A stretch of 64,000 nt of DNA. It comes from Pedobacter psychrophilus (GTDB lineage Bacteria; Bacteroidota; Bacteroidia; Sphingobacteriales; Sphingobacteriaceae). The first letter of the stretch is position 1. The number at the start of each line of letters is the position of its first letter. The notes under the pieces are model-generated. The model saw nothing but the letters and a program-made list of their open reading frames with translations. It searched no databases and was not told where the DNA came from. Positions 12,075 through 21,113 of this stretch are shown here, in pieces. Position numbers and translations under genes: made by a program. The DNA is taken from assembly GCF_001652725.1 (NCBI RefSeq), contig NZ_LWHJ01000011.1, positions 682,001-746,000 on the forward strand, written 5' to 3'.

Positions 12075-12800
12075 CTAAATCTTATTATTTCGATTTAAAA
12101 TGATTCTTGAATTCTTTATTTGATCAAAGTCTTTTAAAAATTTCTTATCAATATAAAATGAATTATTAAAAATTTCATTTTTGATATTGTCTTTTGACAT
12201 CTCCCTTTTTAACGCTTTAAAGCTTTCTTCAATTTTTAATTCTATTGTTTCTATTAATTTTATTACAAGCTTTTCAAGTAATTCAAGGTTGTAATTGAAA
12301 CTTTGAAATTCTAAAGAAGATAAATATAAACTACTTTTGCTTGATTCGTCAAAACTAAACATCAAATGAGATTTTGAATAAATCTCTGATCCAGCATGCG
12401 CAATTTGAGTATTCCTAATTTCAATTAATTTATTGTGAAGCGTTTTAAGTTCATTGTCAAATTTATTAACAATATCATGTTCTAAAACCACACGTCTCTT
12501 TTTCGCTTCTGAGAAACATTTTCCATACAAAATTGAAATATGGCTTGATAATGCTTCCTTAAGTAAATCAGATAATAGGTTATTAGTTTTTAATTCTTTA
12601 GCTGATGACAAAACGACTTTCATATCCTCTCTAATTAAAAGATATCCTAAGTGTTGTTTTGCAATCTCATGATTAAAGAGTGACTTATCAGTTTCTAAGT
12701 CAAAATTTGTAAATTCTAAATCCAAAATTACATGACGTCTCTCTGGATTTAGAATTTTTATAACTGATCCATTATTCAAAAGTGTGTACTTACCCTTCAT
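12075..12800 (-). CDS. Hypothetical protein with HEPN-like R-x5-H motif
   Basis: A 241-aa, mostly helical protein that I do not recognise as a named family. The short beta-rich start (KYTLLNNGSVIKI) is followed by long helices. The segment EIRNTQIAHAG (R129-N...H135) resembles the R(N)x4-6H active site of HEPN-fold RNases, common in toxins and defence proteins such as AbiU2-like proteins. It sits between tgt and the left end of the integrated element but outside the 17-bp repeat, so it belongs to the chromosome side. The HEPN reading is inference from one motif and the helical context. Confidence 0.55.
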   Translation of the reverse strand: MKGKYTLLNNGSVIKILNPERRHVILDLEFTNFDLETDKSLFNHEIAKQHLGYLLIREDMKVVLSSAKELKTNNLLSDLLKEALSSHISILYGKCFSEAKKRRVVLEHDIVNKFDNELKTLHNKLIEIRNTQIAHAGSEIYSKSHLMFSFDESSKSSLYLSSLEFQSFNYNLELLEKLVIKLIETIELKIEESFKALKREMSKDNIKNEIFNNSFYIDKKFLKDFDQIKNSRIILNRNNKI

Positions 12801-12918: not shown

Positions 12919-12950
12919 TTTGAAATTCATACACCTATTCCTTACCTTTG
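12919..12950 (+). promoter_or_regulatory. Ancestral ahcY promoter, now separated from ahcY
   Basis: TTTG at 12919-12922, a 20-bp spacer and TACCTTTG at 12943-12950 give a full match to the Bacteroidota promoter pattern TTTG-N20-TAnnTTTG. Transcription should start about 12956 and run into the copy of the ahcY 5' end (ATG at 12973) kept in the left repeat, where the frame closes after six codons. Before the element inserted, this promoter would have driven ahcY directly. Confidence 0.75.
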
Positions 12951-12968
12951 CAGCTCACTAAAATAAAT

Positions 12969-12985
12969 AACTATGTCATCAGTAG
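12969..12985. repeat. attL: left 17-bp direct repeat of the integrated element
   Basis: The 17 bp AACTATGTCATCAGTAG are identical to 19793-19809, which include the start codon and first codons of ahcY. The repeat ends sharply on both sides (flanking bases differ). A 10-bp palindrome TAGTTAACTA lies at 12991-13000, just inside. Confidence 0.85.
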
Positions 12986-13101
12986 TGATATAGTTAACTA
13001 TTAAATACTACCAAAAACCTATTCACAACCATTAAAAAACCTCTTTAAAGCCTTCATTAAAAGATTACACATTTATAAATATTTGCTATTATTTAAAAAA
13101 T

Positions 13102-13134
13102 GTTTGCACATGTGTGTGCACATGCTTATATTTG
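13102..13134 (+). promoter_or_regulatory. Integrase promoter with palindromic operator in the spacer
   Basis: TTTG (13103-13106), a 20-bp spacer and TATATTTG (13127-13134) form a consensus promoter. The spacer is almost filled by an inverted repeat TGCACA-TGTG-TGTGCA (13105-13120), as expected for a repressor operator. The composite GTTTGCACAT-N3-TGTGCACAT (13102-13123) recurs, nearly identical, at 19720-19741 near the right end. The -7 box ends 3 nt before the likely ATG at 13138, so the mRNA may be leaderless. Confidence 0.65.
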
Positions 13135-13137
13135 GGT

Positions 13138-14396
13138 ATGGCAAGTGTATATTTATTTTTAGATAAGCGTAGGGTTTTAGCGAACGGCAATTTTAAAATC
13201 AGGTTAAGGGTTACCGAAAACAGAAAATCAATTTATTTCACCACAAATTATTCTGTTCCTAATTACACTAAAAAAGGCAAGGTTGATGAAACCTTTGAAG
13301 CTATACAAAGTGGCAAGAATTTAACATCTGAATTTAAAGCAGCAAGTAAAGATTTAAAACTAGAATTGAGCAGAGCCTACGAAATCATAAAAGAATTAGA
13401 GCCGTTCAGTTTTAAGGCATTTAAAACAAGGTTTAGCGCAAAGGGCAATAGAAATGATATTATTGATCTGTTAAAATGTAAATCAGTTGAGTTACTGGCA
13501 AAAAATCAAATATCTAGTTCAAATCTTTATAAACAAGCTTCGCAAATGTTTTTAGATTATGCTCAATCTGTTCTAAATACAAATGAAATTCTTACAAAGA
13601 ATGTAAACTCAAAGCTTTTAAAAGATGTTGAGACGTGGGCAAATAATAAAGAATACAAAAAATTAAGCCTAACAACCATAGGCATGTACATGGTGCGAAC
13701 TAAGGCAGTTATCAACGAAATAATTAAAACATCAGAATTTAGCAAAGCGAAATATCCATTTGGCAAAAAAGATGATGGTCTGTACTCTATACCAAAATCA
13801 AAAAACTCAAAAAGACCGTTAACTATCGAAGAGATAATGCAGGTTTATAATTTTGATGCAACATCAGAAACTCAAAAGTTTGCAAAAGATATATTTCTGT
13901 TTTCTTATTTGGCAAGCGGCATGAACCTAGCGGATATTTTCAAGCTTAAATTTTCAAACTTTGATAAAGATAGATTTACTTTCATTAGGCAAAAAACAGC
14001 CCACAAAAAAAGCGACTTAATAACTGTATTGCTTAATGAAGATTTAAAAGCGATCATTGATAGGCACTCGCAAAGGGTAATAGGTAACGATTATGTTTTT
14101 AATGTGCTTAATCCCGGCATGAATAAAATAGAAGCTAACAAGGCTTTAAGATGTGCAGTTACGAGTATTAACCAAGCTTTAAAGATTATCGCTAAGAAAT
14201 TAGATATACCTCAAACTATTTCTACTTATTACGCAAGACATTCATTCTCAAATATCTTAATGCAAAGTGAAGCACCTTTGGCATTTATAAGTCAAAGTTA
14301 GGACATTCGGATTTAGGCACTACTCAAATTTATCTTAGTCAATTCACTAAAGACAGTGAAGAACGTTACACAGCTAAACTTTTAAAGAAAGCTTAA
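13138..14396 (+). pseudogene. Tyrosine recombinase (integrase), frameshifted near the C-terminus
   Basis: A Bacteroidota-type tyrosine recombinase: N-terminal arm-binding region (ASVYLFLDKRRVLANG), SAM-like core-binding domain and catalytic domain with YYARHSFSNIL. The position usually holding the first catalytic Arg reads LASGMN, with Ser, as in the CTnDOT IntDOT recombinase. The open frame stops at 14301; adding one T at about 14299 continues as LGHSDLGTTQIYLSQF and ends at 14396, giving about 419 residues. The frameshift removes the LGH histidine and the tyrosine nucleophile, so the truncated product should be inactive. ATG 13138 is preferred over 13114 because the latter lies inside the promoter. 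Confidence 0.85.
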
Positions 14397-14399
14397 GCC

Positions 14400-15203
14400 A
14401 TGCAAAAGACTAATGAATTAATATTTATACTAAAACATTTTATTTTTGGTTACCAAGATGGATTAATCTCATTTAAAGAGTATAATCCAAACCTTGCATG
14501 TGATCTTAATACTGAACTTGATTTTAGATTAAAATCTTATAAAAGCTTGTTAAAAACACATTCCATAGATAAATTAGATAGTTTATTGAGAGATGTAATT
14601 AACGAGATTGAAAATATTGATGTAAATAATCAAGAATTAAGAAAGCGAATAGCCGGTAAATTTCGTTTTATATTTTCGCATAAAACATTTAATCAACTTA
14701 ATGGGATAGAATCGAATGAAACCGAAATTGATCTCGATAGTGATTTAAGTTTGGTTTTCTTACAAGTTGATGGATTTATAAACAAAGTGAAAATCAATTT
14801 AAATAGATTACTCAATGAATTAAATCATTTTTTTGATAGTGTTCCATTAATAACCGAACCCCAAAGATTAAGAATTGAGCTAAGTAAATACGGATTTATG
14901 GAGCTAGATAAAGTCAATAATTTTAAAAACAAAAATAAAATATTTGAACTTTTAGCTATTAGAAATTGCTCATTACAGATTGCAACACTTCAATATTTTG
15001 ATTTTATTCAGCATGTAAATTTAAAATTTGCAAAAGGTGTATCAAAAGAACTAGCTAATATCATTAGTGAAATTATGAAACTAGAAAAAACAGATGTTTT
15101 AAATAACATTAATGCCTTAAATTCTGGCTCTAAAGTAGAAAGAACTAGATATAAATCGAGAGAATATTTAATGAAAATAGATAATCATATAATTGATGGC
15201 TAA
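14400..15203 (+). CDS. Hypothetical protein of the integrated element
   Basis: A 267-aa protein starting 3 nt after the stop of the restored integrase frame, so probably co-transcribed with it. It is charged, mainly alpha-helical, with no signal peptide or membrane segment. A polar N-terminal part (about 1-115, with KRIAGKFRFIFSHKTF) is followed by a leucine-rich helical middle and a basic C-terminus (SKVERTRYKSREYL). No family was recognised. RteC, a regulator often found in Bacteroidota elements, was considered, but its motifs are not evident. Confidence 0.7.
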   Translation: MQKTNELIFILKHFIFGYQDGLISFKEYNPNLACDLNTELDFRLKSYKSLLKTHSIDKLDSLLRDVINEIENIDVNNQELRKRIAGKFRFIFSHKTFNQLNGIESNETEIDLDSDLSLVFLQVDGFINKVKINLNRLLNELNHFFDSVPLITEPQRLRIELSKYGFMELDKVNNFKNKNKIFELLAIRNCSLQIATLQYFDFIQHVNLKFAKGVSKELANIISEIMKLEKTDVLNNINALNSGSKVERTRYKSREYLMKIDNHIIDG

Positions 15204-15233
15204 ATAAGTTTTTGCCATTAAATGCCATTTTTA

Positions 15234-15264
15234 CCATTGTGTTAATCAAATAATAACACAATGG
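15234..15264 (+). promoter_or_regulatory. 11-bp perfect inverted repeat covering the start codon of the HTH gene
   Basis: CCATTGTGTTA (15234-15244), a 9-nt loop and TAACACAATGG (15254-15264). The ATG at 15261-15263 lies inside the right arm and a -7-like TACCATTG (15232-15239) overlaps the left arm. As DNA this could be an operator for the HTH protein it precedes; as RNA the hairpin would hide the start codon. Confidence 0.7.
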
Positions 15265-15584
15265 AAACTATAGTAAATCATTCAAATGCACCGCTTTACT
15301 TGGGCAAAATTCTTGATGAAATTAGGGAACTAAGAAACGAGATTGCACAGATACCAGCCGTAAAAACCGCATCACTCCCAAAGTACGTTAACATCAACGA
15401 GGGTGCAAAGATTGTCAGTAAAAGCCCGAACGCTTTAAGGGTTCAAATCTCACTAGGCAATCTAAAATCAATTAAAAAAGGAAGTAGACATTATTTCGAG
15501 AGAGAGTATTTAGAAAACTGGATTTCTGGGAAACTAGATAATGATAAGTTTTTTGATAAAAAGAAGGGAGTAACCAAACCATGA
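15261..15584 (+). CDS. HTH (excisionase/MerR-like) DNA-binding protein
   Basis: A 107-aa protein with a short N-terminal helix (LGKILDEIRELRNEI) and a helix-turn-helix of the excisionase/HTH_17 type at about residues 45-92: VNINEGAKIVSKSPNALRV, then HYFEREYLENWISG. Such proteins in integrative elements direct excision or regulate the element. First gene of a four-gene operon whose coding regions all overlap by 4-11 nt. The start codon lies in an 11-bp inverted repeat, so autoregulation is plausible. Confidence 0.75.
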   Translation: METIVNHSNAPLYLGKILDEIRELRNEIAQIPAVKTASLPKYVNINEGAKIVSKSPNALRVQISLGNLKSIKKGSRHYFEREYLENWISGKLDNDKFFDKKKGVTKP

Positions 15585-15862
15585 TTACTCCAAACAATCC
15601 AAACCAAAAAATCAACAATCCCAAAGGTAGCGAAAACAAAGCCGTTTACAAAGCTTTGCTAATCTCAAAGAAGCCGCTAACAAGGCGACAATTTAATGAG
15701 CTTTCAGGCTTAGAAATTGGAAATTTGTGCCGTTGCTTGCATGACTTAGTTTACAAGTCTAAAACGCTACAGATAGCAAAATATGCACCATGTGGCACAA
15801 CTGGCAAAACTGTACAGCATTTCTATTTCTCTGATAGCCTAAAACTAAAACGGAATGACTAA
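15581..15862 (+). CDS. Small winged-helix-like protein
   Basis: A 93-aa basic protein. Residues 22-65 (NKAVYKALLISKKPLTRRQF into LSGLEIGNLCRCLHDLV) look like a winged helix-turn-helix in which a short helix pair recognises DNA, followed by a beta-hairpin (TGKTVQHFYF). Similar small proteins occur in Bacteroidota islands, usually unnamed. The ATG overlaps the stop of the HTH gene as ATGA and its own stop overlaps the VRR-NUC gene, indicating translational coupling. Role unknown; likely regulation or replication of the element. Confidence 0.65.
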   Translation: MITPNNPNQKINNPKGSENKAVYKALLISKKPLTRRQFNELSGLEIGNLCRCLHDLVYKSKTLQIAKYAPCGTTGKTVQHFYFSDSLKLKRND

Positions 15863-16265
15863 GAGATACAGCGCACCACCTGCAGTTGTTTGGCTTAGAA
15901 ATATTACCAATCAAAAGACTTTAGAAGATAGAACCTCACAGGGGATTACTAAGTGTGTAATGCTTTATGTTAACCACATAGGCGGTTTCTGTTCTGAAAT
16001 TGATAACAGGGGTTTTTTTAATAAAGAGCTTAACAGGTTTGTGCCGTCCAAAATTAAAAATGGGTTTCCAGATGTGGTAGCCTGTTTAAGCGGACGCTTT
16101 ATTGGAATTGAGGTCAAGAGTGGGAAGGATACAATGAGACAGGCACAATATGAGATTTGTATCGAGATTGAACAAGCCAAAGGGCGGTATTTTATAGCAA
16201 AGGACTTTCAGGGCTTTTATGAGTGGATACAGGTTTTAAAGAAAGGGGCTAACAATGGCAAATGA
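15855..16265 (+). CDS. VRR-NUC domain nuclease
   Basis: A 136-aa single-domain protein. The PD-(D/E)XK nuclease core is visible as GFPDVVACLSGRFIGIEVKSG: PD at 72-73 and E-V-K at 86-88, followed by the TMRQAQYE helix with the conserved Gln. This matches stand-alone VRR-NUC nucleases of phages and mobile elements, which are related to the FAN1 nuclease domain and include structure-specific (Holliday-junction resolving) endonucleases. Here it probably processes replication or recombination intermediates of the element. It overlaps both neighbours (8 and 11 nt). Confidence 0.88.
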   Translation: MTKRYSAPPAVVWLRNITNQKTLEDRTSQGITKCVMLYVNHIGGFCSEIDNRGFFNKELNRFVPSKIKNGFPDVVACLSGRFIGIEVKSGKDTMRQAQYEICIEIEQAKGRYFIAKDFQGFYEWIQVLKKGANNGK

Positions 16266-16944
16266 TAAAAACATTAGTTATTTTAATTTCCCTATAGAAA
16301 TAATCAAAGATGCAATTGATGATATTCATAAAACCTGCGATAATATTATTTCATATTCTATTTATAATCTCTTTTTAAAGTTAGAGTTTGGGGATGATGA
16401 AGTCAAGATTAAACATGTTTTTGATTATTTGGGTATTAATAATCCAAACTGGAAATCATCACTTGAAAGAGCTAAAGAACTGTTTTCTGAAATCAATAAC
16501 CACAGGGTAAAAACTGGCATCAAAAGAGATTTAGCATTTGAGTTTAGGGATCAATTTAAAAGTGATTTTGATATAGCCCTTTTTGTTGCTTATTGCGCCC
16601 TTAGAAGCATACTTGGTAGTAAACCCTATCATAAGTGTGGGAATGATTTTCTATTAGCTAGAATGGCAGGATTTGCCAAGGTTGATGAATTAGATGAAGG
16701 TATACCGGATAGAATCAAAAAATATTCAAATCGGTATCAATTAGACAAGATCAAAAAAGAATTAGAAAGAAGCTGGGGGCTTAAATATTACAGTCAACAA
16801 ACTAGAGGTTTTTATTTCTCATTTGATATATCATTTGAATCATTAGTAATGCAAGCTGAATTAAAACGAAAAAAATATTTAGACAAAAAAGCTAATGAAG
16901 AAAGGATGCAAATTATTAAAAGTGTAAAGCAAAATTTAAAATAA
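16255..16944 (+). CDS. Element protein, possible replication initiator
   Basis: A 229-aa basic soluble protein, the last gene of the overlapping operon. It starts SYFNFPIEIIKDAIDD and has helical segments and a C-terminal part (DKIKKELERSWGLKYYSQQTR) that could be a winged helix, with a lysine-rich tail. I do not recognise a named family. Position supports a replication role: its stop codon is immediately followed by two sets of short direct repeats resembling iterons (16944-17075 and 17072-17123) and a T-rich stretch. This is inference from context; a phage replisome-organiser-like protein is the leading idea. Confidence 0.55.
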   Translation: MANDKNISYFNFPIEIIKDAIDDIHKTCDNIISYSIYNLFLKLEFGDDEVKIKHVFDYLGINNPNWKSSLERAKELFSEINNHRVKTGIKRDLAFEFRDQFKSDFDIALFVAYCALRSILGSKPYHKCGNDFLLARMAGFAKVDELDEGIPDRIKKYSNRYQLDKIKKELERSWGLKYYSQQTRGFYFSFDISFESLVMQAELKRKKYLDKKANEERMQIIKSVKQNLK

Positions 16945-17075
16945 GCACCTATAGTAAGGGATTTTTAAGCACCTATAGTAAGACATCAAAAATAGACAGC
17001 TATAGTAAGGAAATTTAAAACAGCACAACAACTTAACAGCAATGACATCAACACAAAGTAAGCAGCTATAGAAAT
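16944..17075 (+). repeat. Four iteron-like CTATAG repeats
   Basis: AGCACCTATAGTAAG occurs at 16944-16958 and 16968-16982, GACAGCTATAGTAAG at 16995-17009 and AGCAGCTATAGAAAT at 17061-17075. All are in the same orientation with starts 24, 27 and 66 bp apart. The first begins in the stop codon of the preceding gene. Confidence 0.75.
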
Positions 17076-17123
17076 ATCTTTTAGTAATATCTTTTAGTAA
17101 TATCTATTAGAAATATCTTTTAG
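17072..17123 (+). repeat. Four perfect-phase 13-bp direct repeats
   Basis: WAATATCTWTTAG repeats at 17072-17084, 17085-17097, 17098-17110 and 17111-17123, head to tail without gaps; only the first base and one inner base vary. A T-rich run follows at about 17131-17143. This layout resembles an iteron array beside an AT-rich unwinding region. Confidence 0.85.
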
Positions 17124-17246
17124 GGGAGTGTTTATTTTTTTTTCAAAGAATTGAGACAGTAGATACAAACCTTAAAAAGAAAAGAAAAAAAGCCCGCCGA
17201 AAAAAAGAAAAAGAAAATTAATTATTAACACTTAAAAAAGCAGATC

Positions 17247-17393
17247 ATGACAACAAAAGAAAGAATCAAAAAATTGAATGAAGAAATCGAAGCAATGAAA
17301 GAAAATTTAACCGAGCTTCAAGACCAGGAGAGATTGGAAAGCCAAAAGCCGGCAACAGATGAAGAGGTAGAAGCTGTTTTTGACAACCTATAA
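17247..17393 (+). CDS. 48-aa coiled-coil small protein
   Basis: A short ORF from ATG 17247 to TAA 17391-17393. The sequence is dominated by a heptad-like amphipathic helix (KERIKKLNEEIEAMKENL), then a Glu-rich tail ending DEEVEAVFDNL. It follows the repeat arrays at about 120 bp and precedes the next gene by 69 bp. Composition is clearly protein-like (no rare codons, strong acidic/basic patterning). Function unknown; dimerisation through the coiled coil is the only thing that can be suggested. Confidence 0.55.
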   Translation: MTTKERIKKLNEEIEAMKENLTELQDQERLESQKPATDEEVEAVFDNL

Positions 17394-17462
17394 AGCAACC
17401 ATTAATTAATAAATGAAATATGCCATTAGGTAATAAATGTAACATCAAAAGAAAATTTTAAA

Positions 17463-18164
17463 ATGAGAAAATCAGTAGTAAAAATGAACGAGCCTAAAAC
17501 ATTATCACAGGACTTAATAACTTATAACGCAATACTAAGCGATTACAGCCTATTTAGTCCAATACTTGACAAAGTAGTAGAGGACTATGAGAAATTAGGT
17601 CTAGGGGCTTTAAATGCTCAAGTATGGGATAAGATTAAGTATTCAAACACCGATTGCTTAGAAAGAGAGTATTTGAAGACCTTGAACGATCAGCTGGATA
17701 GTGCTGGCATAAGGTCTGACAGTATGCGAAAAATCAATTTAAAAGATTGGCAGCTACCATTAATTGAATTAGGAAATTTAATAGATCAATTACATCGTGT
17801 TTATGTTGACAAATTAAATATCAATAGGTTGCGTTTAGACTTAACGCAAATCAGTTTTATAGATGGTAAATTTGAGATAAGTGAAGAAACTAAAACCGAA
17901 ATATTGTTAGGCTTAACGGTATCATTAAACAGCCCTACAGAAAGGTTAATCTATGAGCGTTTAATTAAGACTGCAAAAGCCATGACAGATACCTATGAGC
18001 TTGCAAGGGAGATAGGTTTTATAGATCGCAGCGGATGGAAGGATGTTAAAATTAACTACGTTAATCATCTTATAAAGCAAACAGAAAACGGGTTTGAAGT
18101 AGATAATAATATGTTAAGATGGCAATTAGATGTAATGCAAAGAAATAGTCAAAAAATAATTTAA
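17463..18164 (+). CDS. Hypothetical protein of the integrated element
   Basis: A 233-aa soluble, largely helical protein of unknown family. A second possible start (Met8) lies a few codons downstream of the first. Residues such as DWQLPLIELGNLIDQLHRVYVDKLN and SPTERLIYERLIKTAKAMTD suggest packed amphipathic helices; there is no signal peptide, membrane segment or recognisable catalytic motif. It lies alone between the iteron-like region and the operator/promoter at 18224-18279. It may belong to the replication or maintenance module, but nothing in the sequence proves it. Confidence 0.65.
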   Translation: MRKSVVKMNEPKTLSQDLITYNAILSDYSLFSPILDKVVEDYEKLGLGALNAQVWDKIKYSNTDCLEREYLKTLNDQLDSAGIRSDSMRKINLKDWQLPLIELGNLIDQLHRVYVDKLNINRLRLDLTQISFIDGKFEISEETKTEILLGLTVSLNSPTERLIYERLIKTAKAMTDTYELAREIGFIDRSGWKDVKINYVNHLIKQTENGFEVDNNMLRWQLDVMQRNSQKII

Positions 18165-18223
18165 AATAATTTAAAAAAGTTAAGTGCTAGTTATCAAAAA
18201 GTTAAGCCCCGAAAAATCCAAAT

Positions 18224-18240
18224 TATACGGTAACAGTATA
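18224..18240 (+). promoter_or_regulatory. Operator-like palindrome TATAC-N7-GTATA
   Basis: TATAC-GGTAACA-GTATA, located 7 bp upstream of the -33 element of the promoter at 18248-18279. A near-identical palindrome in the opposite sense lies at 18796-18814 and a half-site TATACGGTAA at 18776-18785. Confidence 0.6.
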
Positions 18241-18247
18241 TTAACTA

Positions 18248-18279
18248 TTTGTTTATCAATATGTTATGTTTTATATTTG
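18248..18279 (+). promoter_or_regulatory. Consensus promoter of the 82-aa gene
   Basis: TTTG (18248-18251), 20-bp spacer, TATATTTG (18272-18279). Expected start of transcription is about 18285, which rules out the in-frame ATG at 18249 and supports ATG 18306 as the translation start. Confidence 0.75.
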
Positions 18280-18305
18280 TTCAACAAACAACTAAAAACA
18301 GCATT

Positions 18306-18554
18306 ATGAGACTTATAAAAAAAGAGAAAGCATTATTAAACGGGTTTATTGATAGAGGTGCTAAAACTATAAAAGAACAAGGTATTGTTAGGACTTTCAA
18401 ACATTCAAAGGTAGTTCAAACATTAACAGGTCTTAGATATTGTATAATATTGAACACCGAAACTGGCGAAAGGTTGCTTTTAGAACGTAACGGTAATTAC
18501 AATAAATTTTATAATGTACCTAAAACTAGTATTCTTTTAGACTTATTAGGATAA
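18306..18554 (+). CDS. Small basic hypothetical protein (82 aa)
   Basis: ATG 18306 is chosen because the upstream in-frame ATG at 18249 overlaps the -33 element. The 82-aa product has a basic N-terminal half (MRLIKKEKALLNGF, DRGAKTIKEQG) and a beta-strand-rich second half (RYCIILNTETGERLLLER, NKFYNVPKTSILLDLLG). No family recognised. Its own promoter flanked by TATAC-N7-GTATA palindromes suggests tight control, perhaps autoregulation, but the protein lacks an obvious HTH. Confidence 0.6.
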   Translation: MRLIKKEKALLNGFIDRGAKTIKEQGIVRTFKHSKVVQTLTGLRYCIILNTETGERLLLERNGNYNKFYNVPKTSILLDLLG

Positions 18555-18795
18555 ATAATTAAAAGCTGGGCGCAAAGCTTACAAATCGGGCGCAACCTTT
18601 TTTTATTCTCCTCAAATTTAGGGCGTATATTTCTGTAACGGCTTAAGCTTAATGCAATATTTACAATATGAAACGGGGGTTTGATAACTTCATCAAATGA
18701 CAATTTAAACACCCCAAAATTGGTGTATTTAAAACCCTCAATGATTTAAATAGGCAAAAAACAGCCCATTTAAAATATACGGTAATTGAATAAAA

Positions 18796-18814
18796 TTATA
18801 CAGTAACCGTATAA
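18796..18814 (+). promoter_or_regulatory. Second operator-like palindrome TTATAC-N7-GTATAA
   Basis: TTATAC-AGTAACC-GTATAA. Its reverse complement matches the palindrome at 18224-18240 at nearly all positions (both contain GGTnAC in the centre). It lies about 240 bp downstream of the 82-aa gene in non-coding sequence. Confidence 0.5.
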
Positions 18815-18918
18815 AAATATAAACTATCAAAGTTTTAAATATCAAAACAAAGTCTTGATGTTCTTGAAAACCATGTTCCACGATTATCACCGCCATTCTT
18901 AACTTCCACTAAATCAGT

Positions 18919-19066
18919 CAGTAGGCATATTAGCCTACTGCTTAAATTAGTGATAAGCATATTAGCCTATTAGGAAATTATCCAAAGTGAGAAATCACAC
19001 TTTGACATGTATATCGGAATTCCGTTATGATAAAAACCATGTGTGAGAAAATCACATACATGGTTT
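18919..19066. other. Cluster of stem-loops in the right end of the element
   Basis: In order: CAGTAGGC/GCCTACTG (18919-18940, 6-nt loop); a partial copy with the direct repeat GCATATTAGCCTA (18925-18937 and 18958-18970); CAAAGTG/CACTTTG (18983-19004); the palindrome CGGAATTCCG (19015-19024); and AAACCATGT-GTGA/TCAC-ACATGGTTT with a 2-nt bulge (19034-19066). The last two hairpins share the centre GTGAGAAA(A)TCACA. The 670 bp from 18555 to 19223 contain no gene; this may be a structured RNA, an origin or a recombination site. Confidence 0.6.
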
Positions 19067-19181
19067 AAAAGACTTTATCCGAAATATCAGAAAAACTACA
19101 ACAGCTCGACATTCAAATCGAACCCTAGAAATGATAAGAAATATCCGAAATAACCGAACCCTATAAAAAGGGATAGGATTT

Positions 19182-19219
19182 TTAAAAAAAAAATAGCCTT
19201 AACAAATGCTAAGGCTATT
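19182..19219 (-). terminator. Intrinsic terminator of the lipoprotein gene
   Basis: Perfect 10-bp stem AATAGCCTTA/TAAGGCTATT (19192-19201 and 19210-19219) with an 8-nt loop. On the minus strand it is followed by a T-run (A-run on plus at 19184-19193), 5 nt after the stop of the lipoprotein gene. Confidence 0.85.
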
Positions 19220-19223
19220 AAAT

Positions 19224-19604
19224 CTATTTTTTACTACCAGTCCAAGTACCGCTAAAACCTAGAGATGTGTTAGACCACGTTCCAGTTGCGGTTGTTGATG
19301 ACATTTGCCCTGTAAATGTTGATCCTGAACTAGAACTGCCAGCGGTTGCGGTAAACTGTCCACTATTGGAAACTGAACCCTTAACATCAAAACTTTGACT
19401 GTAAGGAGTAGAGGTGGTATTTCCCGAAATAGAACCAGTTGAACTTACAACTATTGAAAATACGCCCCTATCATTGTTACCTGAATAAGTACCGATCCAA
19501 TTTCCCTGATAAACAGATGTGCTGGTGGTGTCATCTTTCTTTGAACAGCTAAATAAGGTTAAAACCAAACAAGCTAATAATGTAATGGATAAAATTTTCT
19601 TCAT
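19224..19604 (-). CDS. Small secreted lipoprotein
   Basis: A 126-aa protein with a classical lipoprotein signal: basic start (MKK), hydrophobic core and lipobox LFSC with Cys20, followed by SKKDD, which favours surface or periplasmic anchoring. The mature part is Ser/Thr/Gly-rich and beta-stranded (YQGNWIGTYSG, TGTWSNTSLGFSGTWTGSKK), reminiscent of small lipocalin-like or beta-sandwich Bacteroidota lipoproteins. It is the only cargo gene read toward the left in the element and ends at a strong terminator. Function unknown. Confidence 0.8.
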   Translation of the reverse strand: MKKILSITLLACLVLTLFSCSKKDDTTSTSVYQGNWIGTYSGNNDRGVFSIVVSSTGSISGNTTSTPYSQSFDVKGSVSNSGQFTATAGSSSSGSTFTGQMSSTTATGTWSNTSLGFSGTWTGSKK

Positions 19605-19680
19605 GATTATTTGTGATTTAGAGTTATAAAGTTCAATTTATATTAATAATCAATAAAAAAGAAAACAATTTTAATTTAAT

Positions 19681-19688
19681 TACTTTTG
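19681..19688 (+). promoter_or_regulatory. Candidate replacement -7 box for ahcY inside the element
   Basis: TACTTTTG fits TAnnTTTG and lies 108 bp before the ahcY start, within the right end of the element. No TTTG is present at the -33 position, so this promoter looks weaker than the displaced one at 12919-12950. Confidence 0.4.
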
Positions 19689-19719
19689 TATCTATAAATG
19701 ATTAGAGAGGGGGCAAAGT

Positions 19720-19741
19720 GTTTGCACATTTATGTGCGCAT
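19720..19741 (+). promoter_or_regulatory. Right-end copy of the 22-bp GTTTGCACAT composite motif
   Basis: GTTTGCACAT-TTA-TGTGCGCAT matches 13102-13123 at 19 of 22 positions, in the same orientation and with the same 3-nt spacing. It contains the inverted repeat GCACAT-TT-ATGTGC and lies 51 bp inside attR. Candidate integrase arm site or repressor operator. Confidence 0.6.
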
Positions 19742-19792
19742 ACCTCTAAAAACTACTCATAACTAATTGATTTACAAATAAATAAAAACAAA

Positions 19793-19809
19793 AACTATGT
19801 CATCAGTAG
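19793..19809. repeat. attR: right 17-bp direct repeat, overlapping the ahcY start
   Basis: AACTATGTCATCAGTAG, identical to 12969-12985. Contains the ahcY ATG (19797-19799) and its codons 2-4. Supports integration into the 5' end of ahcY with restoration of the reading frame. Confidence 0.85.
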
Positions 19810-21113
19810 AGACAACTTACGTACCTTACAAAGTGAAGGACATTTCCCTTGCAGAATGGGGAAGAAAAGAAATTGAATTAGCCGAAGCAGAAATGCCAGG
19901 TTTAATGGCACTTAGAGCAGAGTTTGGCGAAAGTCAACCGCTTAAAGGAGCTAGAATTGCAGGATGTTTACACATGACTATTCAAACCGCGGTTTTAATT
20001 GAAACGTTAACTGCATTAGGAGCTGATGTTACTTGGTCATCATGTAATATTTTTTCAACACAAGATCATGCTGCTGCTGCAATTGCTGCTGCTGGAGTTC
20101 CTGTTTATGCTTGGAAAGGCTTAAACGAAGAGGAATTTGATTGGTGTATTGAGCAAACTTTATTCTTCGGTGAAAACCGTGAGCCATTAAACATGATTTT
20201 AGATGATGGTGGCGATTTAACCAACATGGTTTTAGACAGATACCCAGAGTTAGCTGCTGGTATTAAAGGAATCTCTGAAGAAACTACAACTGGCGTTCTT
20301 CGCTTACACGATCGTGTTAAAAAAGGAACTTTACCAATGCCTGCAATCAACATTAATGATTCGGTTACTAAATCTAAATTTGATAACAAATACGGATGTC
20401 GTGAGTCTTTAGTTGATGCAATTCGTAGAGCAACTGACGTAATGATGGCTGGAAAAGTAGCTGTTGTTTGTGGTTACGGCGATGTTGGTAAAGGTTCTGC
20501 AGAATCTTTAGCTAGAGCAGGAGTTAGGGTTATTGTTACTGAAATTGATCCAATTTGTGCTTTACAAGCTGCTATGGAAGGTTATGAAGTAAAGAAATTA
20601 AATACTGCTATTAAAGAAGCTGACATTGTAGTTACGGCAACTGGTAATAAAGACATTGTTAGAGGCGAGCATTTTGAGGCTTTAAAAGACAAAGCTATCG
20701 TTTGTAACATTGGTCACTTTGATAACGAGATTGATATGGCGTGGTTAAACAAAACTCACGGTGCGTCTAAAATAGAAATTAAACCTCAGGTTGATAAATA
20801 TACAATCAACGGAAGCGATGTAATCGTTTTAGCAGAAGGTAGATTAGTAAACTTAGGTTGTGCAACCGGTCACCCATCTTTTGTAATGTCTAACTCTTTC
20901 ACAAACCAAACTTTAGCACAAATGGAGCTTTGGTCTAATTCTGGCGCTTACGAAAACCAAGTTTACGTATTGCCAAAAACTTTAGATGAGAAAGTTGCCC
21001 GTTTACATTTAGCTAAAATTGGTGTAGAATTAGAAGAATTAAGAAACGATCAAGCAGAATACATTGGTGTAACTGTAGAAGGTCCTTTTAAATCTGATTC
21101 TTACCGTTACTAA
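19797..21113 (+). CDS. ahcY: Adenosylhomocysteinase (S-adenosylhomocysteine hydrolase)
   Basis: A 438-aa cytosolic enzyme that splits S-adenosylhomocysteine into adenosine and homocysteine, keeping methylation reactions running. Clear family segments: [32 protein letters not shown], the NAD-binding [27 protein letters not shown] and the C-terminal KSDSYRY. Length is normal for the bacterial enzyme. Its first codons form the right attachment repeat of the integrated element, so expression now depends on promoters in the element's right end or on read-through. A strong terminator follows at 21149-21180. Confidence 0.97.

Follow-up and report, generated by a model that had tools for sequence, protein, structure and literature searches.

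The first codons of ahcY, the gene of adenosylhomocysteinase, harbour an integrative element in Pedobacter psychrophilus. The element occupies 6.8 kb of a 64,000-nucleotide stretch of contig NZ_LWHJ01000011.1 (assembly GCF_001652725.1), the whole of which we call the window and number from its first letter; features lie on the forward strand unless stated otherwise. In our reading, to which we give a probability of about 0.8, elements that target these codons across Pedobacter supply the gene with a promoter of their own (P_R), leave it behind as a promoter scar, and come to re-occupy the site. The insertion, the empty sites, its recurrence, the grouping of the integrases in one clade, the −7 motif of the right ends, the promoters with a long leader in element-free genomes and a case of re-occupation can be read directly in the DNA; that P_R drives ahcY, and that selection prevents its loss, is what we infer.

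The succession of events would be as follows. A tyrosine recombinase would use codons 1–5 of ahcY (ATGTCATCAGTAG) as attachment (att) site, with TCAGTAG as the probable overlap, and integration would strand the host promoter at the left, where it can read only into a short stub. The right end of the element, bearing a P_R of the Bacteroidota type and a leader that holds arm sites of the integrase, would be placed before the rebuilt ahcY, most likely still expressed, but from element DNA. Loss of this right end would silence ahcY, and decay should therefore spare it: P_R, on which the gene would now depend, would persist as a scar. The start codons would stay available as a target, and a new element could then displace the scar.

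The attachment site and its occupants

The 17-mer AACTATGTCATCAGTAG has two copies only in the window, attL at 12969..12985 and attR at 19793..19809; a scan allowing up to three mismatches gave 2 matches against 0.11 expected, while an exact search of the whole 4.0-Mb genome returned 2 on the forward strand, 0 on the reverse strand and 0 for the control. Both copies are thus exact and unique genome-wide, and they bracket a 6.8-kb segment that begins with a tyrosine integrase, just as a preliminary description made from the letters alone had proposed. The right copy contains the start codon of ahcY, as that description also held, and opens its complete, intact frame (19797..21113, 438 aa, passing NCBIfam TIGR00936 at E 2e-189). 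At the left copy the frame runs for six codons only, as the stub MSSVVI* (12973..12993), and the consensus promoter TTTG-N20-TACCTTTG at 12919..12950, described as pointing into this copy, does so: this is the native ahcY promoter, severed from its gene, since promoters of the same type adjoin ahcY in relatives.

The mode of recombination is suggested by the left junction, where core-type arms are inverted around TCAGTAG (12962–12978 and 12986–13002, 82% complementary), pointing to a 7-bp overlap inside codons 3–5 of ahcY. Farther in, a direct repeat of the arm type, TGTTTGCACATG, is present twice at 13101..13124, and its counterpart at the right, recognised by eye, is GTTTGCACAT / TGTGCGCAT at 19719..19741. 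Such TGTGCAAAT-type repeats, found at both ends, are putative integrase-binding sites, and to the eye the left ends of other elements have similar ones, that of a genome discussed below (G432) excepted. The G + C content is alike in the element (0.310), its left flank (0.304) and the 20 kb at its right (0.323), and no tRNA gene was found in the 64 kb.

Empty sites are common in relatives. Among 18 genomes sampled in the window's genus, its own (G000) included, ten have a native-type promoter directly before ahcY (G001–G004, G006, G007, G009, G014, G016 and G017). One of these, G009, whose AhcY is 97% identical to that of the window, has a near-identical promoter in this place, with tgt adjoining. 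Two genomes are occupied: G000 and that of Pedobacter glucosidilyticus (G005, locus L043), where a different element of 10.5 kb, with an integrase 42% identical, sits at the same ahcY codons. In G015, an assembly 77% complete, ahcY is preceded by a right end of the element type, but the assembly contains no ahcY-type integrase; five genomes are unclassified, either because the search pattern missed ahcY (G008, G010, G012) or because no promoter was recognised before it (G011, G013). The segment thus has the direct repeats at both ends and the empty site in relatives that characterise integrative elements, and its insertion at the ahcY start has, as first described, displaced the native control region.

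A sister genus, which holds most of the named Pedobacter matches, was sampled with 119 genomes. The att core is near-invariant there in its nucleotides, although synonymous codons would be possible: TATGTCATCAGTAGNGA is exact in 110 of the 119, and absent as an exact site from 9. A single exact site is present in 101 and two in 9, four of the single-site genomes being occupied on closer look (G319, G379, G401, G407). In no relative did the region 12986–19792 appear as the ancestral arrangement. It is scarcely credible that the 17-bp repeat arose without an integrase, whether by segmental duplication of the start of ahcY or through faulty assembly. Duplications do occur there: G432 (L132) has promoter and start of ahcY twice, 4.6 kb apart, with a 987-aa protein and no integrase-like open reading frame (ORF) listed between them, and for this reason we rejected it as a carrier of an ahcY-type element. 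Yet in 11 other genomes an integrase lies directly behind the same codons, followed by differing cargo, and relatives have native sites, a recurrence that contradicts such an accident.

The integrases found at ahcY are kin. In 399 genomes of the family, the ten best matches to the integrase of G005 (itself included, with at least 38% identity) all lie just downstream of ATGTCATCAGTA, and these ten form one side of a branch that separates them from 20 others with a support of 100/100; with L156, L164 and an integrase from another site (see below) added, 13 again separate from 18 others (100/100). Carriers comprise P. glucosidilyticus, P. planticolens, P. ureilyticus, P. psychroterrae, P. sandarakinus, P. 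fastidiosus, P. jejuensis, P. terrae (G401), Pedobacter sp. Leaf170 and PLR, and one metagenome-assembled genome (MAG). The att copies are between 4.2 kb (G381) and 24 kb (G113) apart, with the proviso that in G030, G193 and G244 they lie on separate contigs, leaving the size of the element indeterminate. Cargo differs from case to case: a MobA relaxase (G265, G280), an MmeI-type, that is type IIG, restriction enzyme (G280, G113), a NACHT protein (G113), an ABC exporter with C39 peptidase (G265) and IS110 (G319). The MmeI and NACHT genes at the ahcY site are defence-like. When 60 proteins of six elements other than that of the window were scanned, MobC was found in two, and no structural protein appeared among the 25 of 55 PHROG families listed.

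Related loci were retrieved with an alignment of ten integrases, the window's sequence used singly having found none; the best 80 of 95 were kept. In viral contigs 12 integrase loci were found, all distant (19–29% identity). As for the sites used by the outgroup, only 3 of 21 loci reach the Rfam gathering score for tRNA (L062, L165 and L177, where the assignment is secure), L064, L080 and L169 having weaker matches; for L063, L078, L079 and L081 the label comes from visual recognition of a T-arm-like GTTCGAACC or similar, L064 and L080 were kept as 'other' in the tree of ten against 20, and ARAGORN reported no tRNA on 30 integrase loci.

One member of the clade has another address. The integrase of locus L159, from a Mucilaginibacter MAG (G463), is 48% identical to that of the window, and the two pair within the clade with a support of 100/99. 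Its insertion site is ATGAATTTTCCCGCTGAA, where a gene begins that we take, from its sequence, to be gcvH. This clade has thus taken a 5′-end target besides ahcY. A second copy of ATGAATTTTCCCGCTGAA, on another contig of the same MAG (L446), is the start of a frame of 126 aa that is complete, and a relative (G362) has an empty gcvH site. The gcvH start pattern was found in 51 of 149 genomes, in one of them twice; 30 upstream regions read gave 28 native −7 boxes, two with none recognised (one of these, L444, at a contig edge), and no scar. At the occupied site the only exact TAnnTTTG is at −75, inside an arm repeat, which hints but faintly at an element-borne promoter.

Proposed right-end promoters and their scars

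In Bacteroidetes the promoter consensus is TTTG at −33 and TANNTTTG at −7, the −33 box being weak in Flavobacterium, according to the accessible part of PMC6847099. We assembled 12 right ends of ahcY elements (G000, G005, G015, G030, G113, G193, G244, G253, G265, G280, G319 and G381), G432 having been dropped beforehand. Within their last 150 nucleotides, all 12 have a TAnnTTTG on the sense strand, 103–116 nucleotides before ahcY, where shuffled sequences would give 1.98 (P 2e-10, for a motif noticed in the first three right ends before the test on all 12); the minus strand has it in 2 of 12. In the window this putative −7 box of P_R is TACTTTTG, at 19681..19688. The full promoter, TTTG-N18–21-TAnnTTTG, is present in five (G030, G113, G253, G319, G381), where it closely resembles TTTGAATTTGGCTAAACTATTGTGTAATTTTG, the consensus given by the long-leader genomes considered below; the seven others, the window's included, have the −7 box alone. 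Arm-type repeats are recognised by pattern in 10 of the 12.

An outward promoter could have another use. In the circular form of the element the right end would, by the inferred geometry, come directly before the integrase gene, so that P_R might serve transcription of the integrase across the joined att site, expression of ahcY being a by-product. Of 11 left ends, however, six have a −7 box just before the ATG of the integrase (in one case TACCTTCG), the other five having none of their own; in the window the likely box is TATATTTG at 13127..13134, 11 nucleotides upstream. Moreover, promoters of the P_R type persist in 38 genomes that have no ahcY-type integrase in their assembly, where its expression cannot explain them. 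We hold the by-product view to be unlikely, while the two roles of P_R may well coexist.

These 38 genomes come from the sister genus. Two genomes with the site at a contig edge being left out, 98 had a single copy and were read up to 9 kb upstream of ahcY. The position of the −7 box is bimodal: it is at −24 to −46 in 56 genomes, at −75 to −130 (a long leader) in 40, at both places in one and at neither in one, whose box carries one change. Of the 40 long leaders, 32 contain the full promoter. A profile built on the 12 right ends and applied at 10 bits or more retains 38 of these 40 and the genome with both boxes, together with 2 of the 56 native ones and 0 of 276 controls. A recognisable arm repeat, that is a part of the element itself, is found in 9 of the 40 (six of the nine being scars) and in 0 of the 56. 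A search of 44 whole genomes, including these 41, found an ahcY-type integrase (above 450 bits) in G401 and G407 only, both occupied; the copy in G407 is found on a separate contig, next to an att copy of its own. Integrases of lower score (111–212 bits) lie elsewhere in G205, G208 and G250, and G331 keeps a fragment of one 3 kb upstream of ahcY.

Adding nine two-copy genomes and G319 to the 98 gives 108, that we divide into 58 native (the 56, G093 and G432), 12 occupied (G030, G113, G193, G244, G253, G265, G280, G319, G379, G381, G401, G407) and 38 scars, namely an element-type promoter with no ahcY-type integrase in the assembly, the absence being indeed one from the assembly since drafts are among them (G414 is 83% complete). 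Among the occupied genomes, G253 and G379 have an integrase that is a remnant or gone. G379 keeps both att copies, and its attL, with a native promoter, is 4.3 kb upstream of P_R.

History can be followed on a tree of ahcY from 92 genomes, of which the sister genus contributes 79 and the window's genus 13. The promoter state requires 19 changes (19–20 in bootstraps, 17 of them being forced by supported branches), as against 30.5 in shuffles; it still requires 19 when G065 and G331 are removed, and 12 when 34 scars are set against natives alone. Re-occupation is seen in G280, which forms one clade with its nearest relatives, the scarred G208, G250, G361 and G429. Its displaced left promoter is 81–90% identical to their scars, the next best match being at 71% and the native mean at 61%, and its own right end is only 61% identical to that left promoter. 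As judged from these sequences, G280 inherited a scar vertically and then received a second insertion.

A number of observations weigh against our reading. P_R is known as a match to a consensus, with TTTG at the usual spacing in only 5 of 12 right ends and missing in that of the window, and the A content just before the ATG is lower in right ends than at native sites (0.57 against 0.66). The pattern used leaves the arm repeat unrecognised in 31 of the 40 element-like genomes; G065 and G331 fail the right-end profile; an attL-like site preceded by a promoter lies upstream in only 1 of the 40; no circular form of the element was seen; and the tree, being built from ahcY itself, may differ from that of the species. 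Finally, P_R and the native consensus share TTTG-N20-TAnnTTTG and 10 of 20 spacer letters (a likeness that cannot be gauged against background, as only 8 other promoters fit the long consensus), and G229, G316 and G420, counted as native, have P_R-like spacers. P_R thus likely shares its origin with the host promoter, the direction of copying being unproven; since some native promoters resemble it, it may descend from that of ahcY. Two genomes native by distance exceed 10 bits in the profile: by the look of their sequences, G316 resembles a scar whose leader has become shorter, and G229 a mixture.

The likeness of promoters, the rarity of attL-like remains and the clustering of long leaders on the tree (19 changes where shuffles give 30.5) would suit a different history, in which some Pedobacter lineages had long possessed the long-leader promoter as their native ahcY architecture and elements captured it later, the element-free genomes never having been occupied. 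However, the arm repeats present in long leaders and in no native site are parts of the element, 36 of the 38 scars fit the right-end profile, changes of state are many and scattered over the tree, and G379 displays attL with the native promoter upstream of P_R. We regard this history as quite improbable: the likeness concerns where P_R itself came from, whereas the derivation of the scars from elements is supported by the arm repeats and the profile.

By eye, the spacers of these promoters hold short inverted repeats, TTTGGCCAAA in many P_R and GCTTT-CAC-AAAGC in many native ones (L270–L367), a possible site for a regulator.

A bolder statement can be made, that we consider reasonably probable: a promoter ratchet would operate at ahcY, whereby elements, some with a look-alike of the ahcY promoter, entered the site and decayed there over and over within a single genus, with 50 of 108 species examined now having a likely ahcY promoter derived from an element, one of them displaced again by a second element, the strategy having also moved to gcvH.

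Gene content of the element in the window

The integrase gene (13138..14301, in an ORF open from 13114) was identified by profile matches and alignment. Its frame terminates at ISQS*, being interrupted near 14290–14300, and the last conserved block (LGHSDLGTTQIYLSQF...), to which the catalytic histidine and tyrosine region belongs, follows in a different frame at 14298–14396. Nine related integrases aligned with it are intact, with a complete catalytic domain, which the window's copy lacks. It is thus either a pseudogene or bears a sequencing error; because the frame is broken before the catalytic tyrosine, the element is probably immobile now, unless the break is such an error. A hairpin scan between attL and the integrase gave no consistent terminator (3 weak matches in 12).

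Downstream, a 267-aa protein without assigned function (14400..15203) has a weak relative in the Mucilaginibacter element (30% identity over 158 aa, E 1e-9). It is followed by a helix-turn-helix protein (15261..15584), a candidate excisionase matching HTH_17 at E 1e-4, under the curated cut-off, and phrog_66 at 0.02; a search of 20 element loci found relatives of it in 8. Next come an ORF of 93 aa (15581..15862), an endonuclease-like protein of the VRR-NUC or Holliday-junction-resolvase type (15855..16265; phrog_93 at E 2e-12, Pfam matches being below cut-off), and ORFs of 229 aa (16255..16944), 233 aa (17463..18164) and 82 aa (18306..18554), these and that of 93 aa without assignment. A small predicted lipoprotein of 126 aa is encoded on the reverse strand (19224..19604), with a lipobox recognised by eye and weak matches only, mostly to its signal region. 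Family scans of the nine element proteins of the window found no relaxase, such as an integrative mobilizable element (IME) would carry, and no capsid, terminase or portal as expected of a temperate phage.

Outside the element, a 241-aa ORF on the reverse strand (12075–12800) sits between tgt and the ahcY promoter. It matches phrog_8440 (E 8e-9), has no match in the G009 locus, where tgt adjoins ahcY, and a relative with 38% identity upstream of ahcY in G017 (L020); it looks like another accessory gene of the tgt–ahcY gap.

Precedents and meaning

Elements that insert at the 5′ end of a gene and bring a promoter are already known, at dusA and prfC. The integrative and conjugative element (ICE) SXT likewise inserts at the 5′ end of prfC and provides a new promoter; it is reportedly a large conjugative element of Vibrio, differing from the ahcY elements in host and gene. 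The use of the first codons of a housekeeping gene as att site, as set out in the preliminary description, has therefore held good, its rarity less so. This description also calls for additions: the substitute promoter apparently brought by the element, the recurrent hot spot, and the broken integrase.

The nearest parallel is with islands and prophages that target dusA, where, in the accessible parts of PMC4482086 and PMC8409611 (the latter on IMEVchUSA3), an integrase family is likewise dedicated to the beginning of a housekeeping gene; the islands there supply a new promoter and rebuild the frame. For IMEVchUSA3, the same portion of text has reporter fusions with dusA still expressed, at a lower level (PMC8409611). 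The ahcY elements differ in their target, ahcY or gcvH, and in their host, the Sphingobacteriaceae; they also share as core codons 1–5, which leaves the protein unchanged, whereas IMEVchUSA3, in that account, replaces the N-terminus of DusA. What is accessible of these two papers does not mention promoter scars after loss of the islands. Genomic islands of the Bacteroidota are also known at tRNA genes: the 10K island of Riemerella shares with the ahcY element an integrase, direct repeats and small size, but targets tRNA-Arg, and the accessible portion of PMC6764341 does not describe any exchange of host promoters. In our searches of an open-access library we did not find ahcY or gcvH as att target, nor serial promoter scarring; one paper that brings together S-adenosylhomocysteine hydrolase and prophages deals, in the part accessible, with a phage gene so named and with no integration site.

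If our reading is true, these elements would show mobile DNA changing how a central gene of the methyl cycle is expressed, in events that can be counted and that are replicated across a phylogeny, with the states before, during and after all present within one genus. The element would exploit a housekeeping gene harmlessly by means of a substitute promoter, and in so doing make its own end hard to lose. For the bacteria, this would be an ordinary route of promoter turnover, and would offer a natural series for the effects of promoter replacement on the metabolism of methionine and S-adenosylhomocysteine.

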